Shown: positions 9,238 through 42,151 of the stretch, one piece after another
Position numbering within the stretch: the stretch's first letter is position 1
Layout: the number at the start of each line of letters is the position of its first letter
Assembly (NCBI RefSeq): GCF_002288635.1
Contig: NZ_NRSW01000001.1
Location: 2,809,852-2,873,851 of the forward strand
Reading direction: 5' to 3'
From: Mucilaginibacter sp. MD40
GTDB lineage: Bacteria > Bacteroidota > Bacteroidia > Sphingobacteriales > Sphingobacteriaceae
Length of the DNA: 64,000 nucleotides
Translations under genes and position numbers: made by a program
Notes under the pieces: generated by a model
What the model was told of the DNA's origin: nothing
Database searches by the model: none
Seen by the model: the letters and a program-made list of their open reading frames with translations, nothing else

Positions 9238-10449
9238 ATGAACATCCCAATTTATTTAGATAACAACGCAACTACCCCAATGGACCCAAGGGTGCTTGAA
9301 GCTATGCTGCCTTACTTTACCAACAAATTTGGTAATGCTGCAAGCCGTAACCACCATTTTGGATGGGTAGCCGAAGAGGGCGTTGATTATGCTCGTGAGC
9401 AGGTTGCAAAGTTGATAGGTGCAAGCGAAAAAGAGATCATCTTCACATCAGGCGCTACCGAATCTGATAACCTTGCCATCAAAGGCGTGTTTGAAATGTA
9501 TAAAGACAAAGGTAACCACATTATAACAGCTGTTACTGAACATAAAGCTGTTTTGGATGCCTGCAAACATGTAGAGAAATTGGGCGGTAAAGTAACTTAC
9601 CTGCCTGTTAAGGAAGATGGTTTGGTTGATCTTGGCGAGCTTGAAGCTGCCATGACACCTGAGACCATCCTGGTATCTATCATGTATGGAAATAACGAGA
9701 TAGGTGTTATACAGCCTGTTAAAGAAATTGCGGCCATTGCCCACAAGCATGGTGCTTTGTTTATGACAGATGCTACCCAGGCAGTTGGTAAAATTCCTGT
9801 TGATGTAAACGTTGATGGTATTGACCTTTTAGCATTATCAGCACATAAAATGTATGGCCCTAAGGGTGTAGGTGCTTTGTACGTACGCCGTAAAGGACCA
9901 CGTGTTAAGGTTACTGCCCAGATGGATGGTGGTGGCCACGAGCGCGGTATGCGTTCTGGCACGCTGAACGTTCCAGGTATTGTTGGTTTAGGCAAAGCCT
10001 GCGAAATTGCCGGTCAGGAAATGGAAGCCGAAGCAAAACGTCTTTCTGCTTTGCGCGATAAATTGCAAAACGCCCTTACTGAGCTTGAAGAAAGCTATGT
10101 AAACGGTAACGTTGAACACCGCTTACCGCACGTTGCTAACATATCATTCAAATATGTTGAGGGCGAAGGTTTAATGATGGCCATGAAAGACTTGGCAGTG
10201 TCATCAGGCTCTGCATGTACTTCGGCTTCATTAGAACCATCATATGTGTTAAAAAGCTTGGGTTTGAGCGATGACCTGGCACACTCTTCTATCCGTTTCG
10301 GTTTAGGCCGTTTCACAACAGAAGAAGAGGTTGACTACGCCATTGAAGTAACTAAAAAAGCGGTTAACCACCTGCGCGAACTGTCACCACTTTGGGAAAT
10401 GTTCAAAGAAGGTATTGACCTTAACTCAATTGAGTGGGCAGAACACTAA
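9238..10449 (+). CDS. iscS: Cysteine desulfurase IscS
   Basis: 403 residues. It removes sulfur from cysteine with pyridoxal phosphate and passes it to IscU. Start at the ATG at 9238 ([16 protein letters not shown]); an upstream TTG extension is unlikely. Visible: [12 protein letters not shown] (cofactor phosphate binding), the lysine of [10 protein letters not shown] forming the internal aldimine, and [17 protein letters not shown] with the persulfide cysteine. First gene of iscS-iscU-iscA. The chaperones hscA/hscB, ferredoxin and iscR of proteobacterial clusters are absent here. Confidence 0.96.
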
Positions 10450-10450
10450 A

Positions 10451-10584
10451 TAGATTTTAGATGTTAGATATGAGATTTAAGATTTCATATTAAGCGTCGA
10501 ATCAATAATTTATAATTATAAACACGATTAGAGAGGATAGACAGAGCTCATCTCATATCTAAAATCTCAAATCTTATATCTAAA
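10451..10584. repeat. Large inverted repeat with 5+5 in-register heptamers, iscS-iscU gap
   Basis: Left arm 10451-10485: TAGATTT, TAGATGT, TAGATAT, GAGATTT, AAGATTT. Right arm 10550-10584: ATCTCAT, ATCTAAA, ATCTCAA, ATCTTAT, ATCTAAA. Each right-arm heptamer is the reverse complement of a left-arm type. The central 64 bases are unstructured and AT-rich. The right arm ends five bases before the iscU ATG, so a folded transcript would bury the iscU start region. Confidence 0.85.
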
Positions 10585-10589
10585 ATATT

Positions 10590-11003
10590 ATGGCTTATTC
10601 AGATAAAGTAATTGACCACTACACCAACCCGCGTAACGTGGGTACGTTAGACAAAAGCAGCCACAAGGTTGGTACCGGCCTTGTAGGTGCCCCTGAGTGT
10701 GGCGACGTAATGCGCCTGCAAATCCAGGTTGATGATAACAATATCATCACCGATGCAAAATTTAAAACTTTTGGTTGCGGGTCGGCCATCGCTTCTTCAT
10801 CTTTAGCTACAGAGTGGCTTAAAGGTAAAAGCGTTGACGATGCCATGAAAATAGATAACATGGATATTGTTGAAGAGCTTGCATTGCCACCGGTAAAAAT
10901 TCACTGCTCAGTATTGGCAGAAGATGCTATTAAGGCTGCCATTAACGACTACCGCGTTAAGAACGGCATGGAGCCAATTGAATTAGAAAAATCGCACCAC
11001 TAA
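10590..11003 (+). CDS. iscU: Fe-S cluster scaffold protein IscU
   Basis: 137 residues. It assembles [2Fe-2S] clusters on three conserved cysteines with sulfur from IscS. The cysteines are in APECGDVM (with the ligand Asp), FKTFGCGSAIASSS and KIHCSVLAEDA. The LPPVK chaperone-recognition motif just before the third cysteine (ALPPVKIHC) is kept, although no hscA is near. Second gene of the isc group, with a large heptamer-type inverted repeat on each side. Confidence 0.97.
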   Translation: MAYSDKVIDHYTNPRNVGTLDKSSHKVGTGLVGAPECGDVMRLQIQVDDNNIITDAKFKTFGCGSAIASSSLATEWLKGKSVDDAMKIDNMDIVEELALPPVKIHCSVLAEDAIKAAINDYRVKNGMEPIELEKSHH

Positions 11004-11099
11004 ATTTAGATACAAGAATCAAGAGCCAAGAGCCAAGACCTTTGTTTTTGCTTGAAGGCTTTTATCTTGATTCTTGACTCTTGAGTCTTGATTCTTAAA
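11004..11099. repeat. Large inverted repeat with 5+5 in-register heptamers, iscU-iscA gap
   Basis: Left arm 11004-11038: ATTTAGA, TACAAGA, ATCAAGA, GCCAAGA, GCCAAGA. Right arm 11065-11099: TCTTGAT, TCTTGAC, TCTTGAG, TCTTGAT, TCTTAAA. The arms are reverse-complementary variants of one heptamer, NNCAAGA, and fill the gap to within two bases of the iscA ATG. The heptamer differs from that of the iscS-iscU gap but the count and layout are identical. Confidence 0.85.
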
Positions 11100-11101
11100 C
11101 A

Positions 11102-11428
11102 ATGGTAACTGTAACTGATAAAGCAAAATTGAAAATTGAGCACCTTATGCAGGATAGCGGGCTGGATAGCTCTTATTTTTTGCGTGTGAGTGTGCAGGGA
11201 GGAGGCTGTTCCGGCTTGTCATACAATTTGGATTTTGACAACGAGGAGAAAAAAGGCGATCAGTTTTTTGAAGACAAAGGTGTCCGCATGGCTTTGGATA
11301 TGAAATCTTTCTTATACCTGGCCGGCACAGAGTTGGATTTTAGCGATGGCCTTAATGGTAAGGGTTTTAACTTCCATAACCCTAACGCCACCCGTACCTG
11401 CGGCTGCGGAGAAAGTTTCTCTGTATAG
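11102..11428 (+). CDS. A-type Fe-S carrier protein (IscA/HesB family)
   Basis: 108 residues. The three carrier cysteines are visible: VQGGGCSGLSYNLDF for the first and TRTCGCGESFSV (CxC) at the end. The rest (MVTVTDKAKLKIEHLM, FNFHNPNA) matches the HesB/IscA/SufA fold. It receives clusters from IscU and delivers them to [4Fe-4S] apoproteins. Whether IscA, SufA or ErpA cannot be settled from sequence alone; its place after iscU favours IscA. A palindrome with T-run follows. Confidence 0.95.
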   Translation: MVTVTDKAKLKIEHLMQDSGLDSSYFLRVSVQGGGCSGLSYNLDFDNEEKKGDQFFEDKGVRMALDMKSFLYLAGTELDFSDGLNGKGFNFHNPNATRTCGCGESFSV

Positions 11429-41389: not shown

Positions 41390-42069
41390 CTAATCGCTTT
41401 TTTACCGGCAATAAAATCTTTTAAATAGTAGGGCTCAAAATAGGCAACATCTTCAAACAGCCCTTTTTCAAACTTATTTTGTACTATTTGAGTTAAATGC
41501 CTGGCAGAATTGGTAAACCCTTCAATAAAGATAGCGTTGGGATGTGTATCTAATAACTCGCGGCATTTTTCTGAACCATCGCCGAAAAAAGAAATCTTAT
41601 TTTCCCGCAATATATCGGCAAAACTTTCCGGTGTTATAATTTCAGCGGCTATAGGCTTTATTTGATTGCCACTTTGGTCATAAATAGCGGTATAAACCTC
41701 CATTCGCCTTGCATCAATCATAGGGCATAATAGCGTGTTGCTTTCTATGGTTTTAGTAGAAGCCAGTCCGCTTGCCATGGATGCCAGTGTATCCACAGAT
41801 ATTAGCGGCTTGTCTAAAGCAAAGCATAAACCTTTGGCAGTTGAAACCCCAATACGTAACCCCGTATATGAACCCGGTCCACTGCTTACGGCTATCGCAT
41901 CAATATCGTTATAATTATAATTCCCTTGTTTCAATATCTCATCTATATATAAAGTAATTACCTCGGCATGTACATTGCGCATGTTTATCTCCCGGTAAGC
42001 AATTACTTTACCAGCTTTGGCAATAGCAACAGAACAAGATGTAGTGGCAGTTTCTATCTGTAAAATCAT
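41386..42069 (-). CDS. tsaB: tRNA threonylcarbamoyladenosine biosynthesis protein TsaB
   Basis: 227 residues from the ATG at 42069 (MILQIETATTSCSVAIAKAG). An ASKHA-fold protein lacking the metal site of TsaD; it scaffolds TsaD and TsaE in making t6A37 of tRNAs. SSGPGSYTGLRIGVSTAKG is the family signature near residue 65. It is the last gene of rpmH-rnpA-yidD-tsaB, 86 bases after yidD, with a heptamer-type repeat between. Its stop overlaps the convergent barrel gene by four bases. Confidence 0.95.
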   Translation of the reverse strand: MILQIETATTSCSVAIAKAGKVIAYREINMRNVHAEVITLYIDEILKQGNYNYNDIDAIAVSSGPGSYTGLRIGVSTAKGLCFALDKPLISVDTLASMASGLASTKTIESNTLLCPMIDARRMEVYTAIYDQSGNQIKPIAAEIITPESFADILRENKISFFGDGSEKCRELLDTHPNAIFIEGFTNSARHLTQIVQNKFEKGLFEDVAYFEPYYLKDFIAGKKAIS

Positions 42070-42073
42070 AATG

Positions 42074-42151
42074 AAATTCAAAAGTAGAAATTCAAAAGTA
42101 GAAATTGAGGATCGTGCATTATTTTTGACTTCTTAATTTGAATCCTGACTT
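42074..42151. repeat. 14-mer tandem repeat and inverted heptamer repeat, yidD-tsaB gap
   Basis: AAATTCAAAAGTAG is exactly repeated at 42074-42087 and 42088-42101, followed by a partial third copy; 14 is twice the seven-base period. The right side (42121-42151) has TTGACTT, TGAATCC, TGACTT, roughly reverse-complementary. It fills the gap just upstream of tsaB. Confidence 0.6.

Follow-up and report, generated by a model that had tools for sequence, protein, structure and literature searches.

The gap between iscS and iscU in Mucilaginibacter sp. MD40 holds an inverted repeat whose two arms are built of heptamers in register, and this raises the question of what kind of structure it is and where it comes from. 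A sequence-only reading of the window, i.e., the whole stretch of 64,000 nucleotides analyzed here, had described two mirrored arms of five heptamers each in a strict 7-base register, with the right arm ending five bases before the iscU ATG. Both statements are exact. The left arm of this hairpin (here named element 1) reads TAGATTT, TAGATGT, TAGATAT, GAGATTT, and AAGATTT, and the right arm reads ATCTCAT, ATCTAAA, ATCTCAA, ATCTTAT, and ATCTAAA. The locus is organized as follows:

9241 to 10449, + strand: iscS-type cysteine desulfurase gene, upstream context (from the list of open reading frames [ORFs])
10451 to 10485, + strand: left arm of element 1, AGATNTN flavor with five heptamers in register, 1 nt past the iscS stop codon
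10486 to 10549, no strand: loop of element 1, 64 nt, without an ORF (from the sequence and the ORF list)
10550 to 10584, - strand: right arm of element 1, five reverse-complement heptamers, ending 5 nt before the iscU ATG
10590 to 11003, + strand: iscU, context gene, with its ATG at 10590

Both arms were called as period-7/14 arrays by TRF. The gap reaches a mirror score of 23 and 48 lag-7 matches, each of which was equaled in 0 of 2,000 dinucleotide shuffles, and as RNA it is predicted to form a stem of -32.4 kcal/mol (z = -3.3). Autocorrelation of the 64-kb window at lags 4 to 21 yielded strong peaks at 7, 14, and 21 only, which were located in the two isc gaps and, at lag 14, at 42067 to 42110. 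The window holds two further hairpins: a second mirrored heptamer hairpin fills the iscU-iscA gap (11008 to 11096; RNA fold z = -4.6), and a third, more decayed one (42074 to 42151) lies between two genes on the - strand that we take to be yidD and tsaB from reading their translated sequences without a search. Their features are listed below:

11008 to 11038, + strand: left arm of element 2, AAGANNC flavor, 4 nt past the iscU stop codon
11039 to 11064, no strand: loop of element 2, 26 nt, without an ORF (from the sequence)
11065 to 11096, - strand: right arm of element 2, separated by 5 nt from the iscA ATG (11102)
11102 to 11428, + strand: iscA-type gene, context (from the ORF list)
42074 to 42110, + strand: left arm of element 3, AAATTCAAAAGTAG flavor, in the yidD-tsaB gap, matching the arms of locus L066 of the same genome
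42122 to 42151, - strand: right arm of element 3, degenerate (from arm search and shuffles)

The AAGA-heptad pattern matched 64 times genome-wide, compared with 0 matches for the reversed control pattern. Only the AAGA version provides a valid reversed control; the general AGA x4 pattern reads the same when reversed, which makes its control equal to its matches and leaves it uninformative. Counting stretches around pattern matches against mechanically called ORFs gave about 34 heptad clusters: tandem gaps hold 23, convergent gaps 10, an ORF (leuS) one, and divergent gaps none. Most lie within a few bases of a stop or start codon, and both arms are present in 17 of the 34 under a strict criterion. 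Since 9 of the 36 gaps of the window are divergent, the absence of all 33 intergenic clusters from divergent gaps is unlikely to be due to chance (0.75^33, i.e., about 1e-4). Six loci (L032, L033, L034, L036, L048, and L060) are one-armed arrays of up to ten heptads beside gene ends, with no clear mirror partner, and the loops of three other copies (L039, L055, and L058) harbor a separate terminator-like hairpin. The distant genome G037 contains 1,867 AGA-heptad matches (AGAGCAG/AGAGTAG), and the one S23 locus examined there (L208) carries telomere-like GGGTTTC arrays on both sides.

At one locus of the Mucilaginibacter sp. MD40 genome (L035/L063), AAGANNC arms enclose a complete gene of the S23/23S-rRNA-IVP four-helix-bundle family (PF05635, TIGR02436). 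With two more hairpins in the window, about 34 clusters in the genome, and complete members that carry an S23/IVP gene, the hairpin is not the isolated, isc-specific structure for which it had been taken. Seven S23 genes are present in the studied genome, and 58 of 60 Bacteroidia genomes have at least one. In the immediate flanks of Bacteroidia S23 loci, autocorrelation at lag 7 is 0.385 on the upstream side and 0.369 on the downstream side, compared with 0.244 far away, and besides lag 7 only lags 14 and 21 are clearly raised. When the upstream flank was matched locally against the reverse-complemented downstream flank, 96 Bacteroidia S23 loci gave a mean score of 20.9 with their own partner and 10.2 for mismatched loci; the own-arm score exceeded the 95th percentile of the null in 74 of the 96. 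Arms of S23 elements are about 33 nt long. Of 79 well-armed elements, 66 had a best period of 7, 11 of 8, and 2 of 6, and in 76 G exceeded C in the inward-read arm. Octamer arms (e.g., AGTCCGAA) in the same mirrored layout were seen at L065, L096, L162, L176, L181, L182, and L188.

The flavor of the arms varies from one S23 locus to the next (AAGANNC, AGATNTG, AGTATCA, AGTTCAT, AAAGTTG, AGTCCGAA, and others), and the seven S23 elements of genome G000 alone show about seven flavors. Across different sites and genomes, arm similarity tracks the similarity of the S23 proteins (Mantel r = 0.48; 0 of 500 permutations), with a mean arm score of 18.2 at a protein similarity of at least 0.7 and of about 6 below 0.4. 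That the flavor follows the protein at unrelated sites argues that gene and arms move together as one unit; this correlation is a prediction of a mobile unit and not of slippage in place. The pattern extends beyond the Bacteroidia. For 80 named S23 loci (GTDB) together with eight cyanobacterial plasmid loci, lag-7 autocorrelation of the flanks was 0.394 and 0.396, compared with 0.260 far away. Fourteen S23 genes on cyanobacterial plasmids gave an own-arm score of 22.1 versus 11.0, with clear heptamer arrays (e.g., GGGAGTA, GGGAACA, and AAAAGCT) at most of them. The arms exist, they flank S23 genes in Bacteroidota and Cyanobacteria, and they are locus specific and accompany particular S23 lineages. 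Some S23 elements of cyanobacterial plasmids sit within CRISPR operons, between cas6 and cas4 or between cas10 and cmr3 (L247, L249, and L336). A comparison of S23 with phage records returned no match.

How do the hairpins of the window relate to these elements? No S23 ORF was found in the loops of elements 1 and 2 (64 and 26 nt). The arms of element 1 matched best those of AGATNTG S23 elements of related species (score of up to 25; shuffle maximum of 19), and S23-bearing partners of its AGATNTN flavor occur in relatives, with none in its own genome. Element 3 scored 23 against L066, an S23 element of its own genome (shuffle maximum of 16). Element 2 reached 22 against L094 of a relative and 16, equal to the shuffle maximum, against L063 of its own genome; its AAGANNC core is common to S23 elements at one site in four species (L063, L094, L179, and L201). 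Compared with shuffles, these scores give good support for reading elements 1 and 3 as gene-less copies of S23 elements and make this reading plausible for element 2. We therefore read the iscS-iscU hairpin, with a probability of roughly 0.7, as a gene-less copy of a small, apparently mobile element of the S23/IVP family. A possible S23 remnant (the last bases of the ORF) beside a lone arm in the metF gap of G014 did not match above shuffles and is a hint at most.

Among 30 Mucilaginibacter genomes, the iscS-iscU heptad hairpin occurs in this genome only, while the iscU-iscA gap carries a mirrored hairpin above all shuffles in about 25, in at least four flavors. The expectation that the register would be kept in the orthologous gaps of close relatives thus failed for iscS-iscU (1 of 30 genomes) and held for the neighboring iscU-iscA gap, with switching of flavor. 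Whole gap elements differ between close relatives. G013 and G031 have 98% identical iscU genes, identical iscS-iscU gaps, and nearly identical iscA starts; the stretch from the iscU stop to the iscA start is wholly different, an AGATTTG hairpin in one and a GTGAGTG hairpin in the other. Similar exchanges of the whole gap were found in the close pairs G017/G031, G021/G028, and G023/G033. After an element has arisen, recombination between homologous flanks could pass a swapped gap on, but every flavor must first come into being as a whole mirrored unit. Within genomes, gap flavor and S23 flavor showed a modest association (53 of 5,000 permutations), a value obtained with incomplete S23 sampling and no control for phylogeny. 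The iscS-iscU gap of G013, G017, and G031 has GATTTCG heptads on the left and nonmatching ACTTAGA heptads on the right, perhaps as a chimera of two elements.

Exchange of this kind is also visible elsewhere. In the metF gap of the genus, some species have S23 elements of several flavors, and others have mirrored repeats of different families. The loop of LeuRS between FPI and IEVFTTR contains AAGANNC heptads in frame in this species and in a few more; further species have different heptads or palindromes there, and in G036 and G025 the loop is short. No transposition event was seen, and no target-site duplication was identified in the exchanged gaps or in leuS. As side observations, the metF and iscS-iscU gaps of Mucilaginibacter spp. 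(L127 to L156 and L098 to L101) show paired CCCCCTGAAGGGGG palindromes at both edges as well as GTCATTGCGAG...CTCGCAATGAC repeats, and the LeuRS loop (leuS, L217 to L246) is a hot spot of species-specific in-frame repeat inserts, including mirrored TTTCGGA heptads and CTCTCC/GGAGAG palindromes.

Several other explanations have to be weighed against a mobile origin. The isc stem might be an RNA hairpin that serves the host by tuning processing, stability, or translation of iscU/iscA, so that selection keeps a hairpin whatever its sequence. Mirrored heptads persisting in iscU-iscA of about 25 of 30 species despite flavor switching would fit this, as would the position of the elements in transcribed and never in divergent gaps and their stable predicted stems. 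However, the iscS-iscU hairpin is present in 1 of 30 genomes only, the family is spread over unrelated genes and even inside leuS, and the arms track S23 lineage at unrelated sites; we consider a host-serving origin unlikely. A hairpin useful to the host would nevertheless be compatible with a mobile origin, as a possible secondary development. It is more improbable still that the hairpin is a mutational scar, in which slippage and template-switch correction of quasi-palindromes make and homogenize mirrored heptads in place, without a mobile element. The units are indeed degenerate tandem copies, and some arrays consist of one long arm; moreover, literature cited in PMC4679880 ranks heptanucleotides first among the long simple repeats of many bacteria and has invoked slippage as their source. 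Such a scar leaves unexplained why S23 genes lie between the arms in many taxa, why arm flavor and S23 protein are correlated at unrelated sites, and how whole gaps are exchanged at 98% iscU identity.

A dedicated regulator that recognizes the heptads as an array of sites on DNA or RNA would account for the strict register and for a conserved core with variable positions, but the core switches freely between species at one locus and many flavors coexist in one genome (about seven for the seven S23 elements of G000), which makes such a regulator very improbable. The persistence of a hairpin with switching flavor in iscU-iscA is better fitted by an exchangeable mobile cassette than by either the conserved binding array or the local slippage scar that the sequence-only reading had offered. 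That reading was right to set aside an intrinsic terminator or a REP/BIME element: although the inverted repeat lies near gene ends and the loops of some other copies hold a terminator-like hairpin, the stems are AT rich, imperfect, longer than 30 bp, and made of tandem heptads in gaps of codirectional operons, no T-run follows the right arm, and no Rfam family matched at its gathering score. Weak matches to microRNA and intron families lay far below this score and were discarded. We regard this explanation as hardly conceivable. Local slippage alone, a terminator, a REP element, and a binding array were each rejected as the main reading.

The predicted fold of the S23 protein (pLDDT of 96.8) agrees with the known S23 structures 2GSC and 2RLD; a weaker match is to Avd of diversity-generating retroelements (TM of about 0.8; Foldseek E of 0.1 to 0.2; sequence identity of about 9%). 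S23 thus shares a predicted four-helix fold with Avd; unlike Avd systems, S23 elements have no adjacent reverse transcriptase and no template or variable repeat. Neither a recombinase nor a reverse transcriptase was found inside an S23 element. A reverse transcriptase acting in trans was rejected as a general requirement, as RVT_1 occurs sporadically and several S23-rich genomes lack it, with no match in G011, G013, and G026, each of which is essentially one contig. A dedicated reverse transcriptase is therefore not the general answer, and a route via host replication or repair is favored.

In this reading, a complete element consists of one S23 gene in a loop between two arms, the first being about 33 nt of degenerate tandem heptads whose G-containing strand runs inward and the second its reverse complement. 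The elements lie in transcribed spacers, directly past a stop codon and frequently ahead of the following start. S23, as an Avd-like oligomer, may bind the hairpin in its RNA form or in the form of extruded or single-stranded DNA, and may aid its copying into new spacers via host or other enzymes; the favored, unproven route is through host enzymes of replication or repair that act on hairpins in extruded or single-stranded form. Gene-less copies could have been moved in trans or could be remnants after gene loss, and the tandem units would let the number of units per arm slip. The long stem in mRNA is presumably tolerated, and RNase III may cut it, as it does the intervening sequences (IVSs) of 23S rRNA. 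It is conceivable, though we hold it only tentatively, that this reflects a cross-phylum class of recombinase-free mobile elements, in which an Avd-like S23 recognizes heptad hairpins and drives their copying into transcribed spacers, with cyanobacterial heptanucleotide tandem repeats (STRRs), the Bacteroidota hairpins, and 23S rRNA IVSs all being forms of it.

To our knowledge, S23/IVP genes (annotated as "four helix bundle protein") have no known function, and the cyanobacterial STRRs and the origin of 23S rRNA IVSs are old open questions. One architecture would link all three and would suggest a testable function for S23 in maintenance or mobility of the element. S23 elements would account for many intergenic heptamer repeats, giving them an origin across several phyla, as well as for the variation of operon spacers and of the LeuRS surface loop among close species, and they hint at movement of DNA without a recognizable transposase.

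Among known systems, MITEs and REP/RAYT resemble S23 elements as small dispersed inverted repeats with gene-less beside gene-bearing copies. Unlike in these, S23 is neither a transposase nor a RAYT, the arms are tandem heptads, and no target duplication was seen. TAACTGA repeats of Beggiatoaceae are intergenic heptamers near start codons, some of them in Bacteroidetes, but they consist of one fixed heptamer that is nearly always direct, with a single inverted case (PMC4679880). The STRRs of filamentous cyanobacteria are 7-bp intergenic tandem repeats that are capable of forming hairpins and whose function is unknown (PMC2670836). They share with the hairpins of the window the many degenerate tandem 7-bp copies in intergenic regions, and the comparison drawn by the sequence-only reading was apt, as STRR-like heptamers bracket cyanobacterial plasmid S23 genes in mirrored arms. 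STRRs differ in that, in the literature consulted, they have been described as repeats only, with no link to S23 or mirrored arms, and in that the host of the window is Mucilaginibacter, a member of the Bacteroidota. The open-access literature yielded no paper joining S23 genes with heptamer arms (subscription papers and preprints lay outside the search) and, in line with the earlier reading, no description of any class that has two mirrored arms of heptamers.

S23 elements are also akin to the IVSs of 23S rRNA. The IVS of Coxiella contains an S23p ORF, and its terminal stem spans 28 bp; the heptameric repeats that it holds in tandem differ in number between strains, and the IVS is excised by RNase III (PMC4990558). 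Like S23 elements, the IVSs of Coxiella and Leptospira carry an S23/IVP ORF in a hairpin loop with terminal inverted repeats, and the hairpins of the window share with them a long (predicted) stem of such repeats. IVSs, however, sit in rRNA helices and are excised by RNase III, whereas S23 elements occupy spacers of protein genes, with many copies that lack the ORF and many heptad flavors. Because location in rRNA was checked and the site lies between iscS and iscU, we do not claim membership in the IVS family proper. Our verdict is that S23 elements are related to 23S rRNA IVSs but reside outside rRNA.
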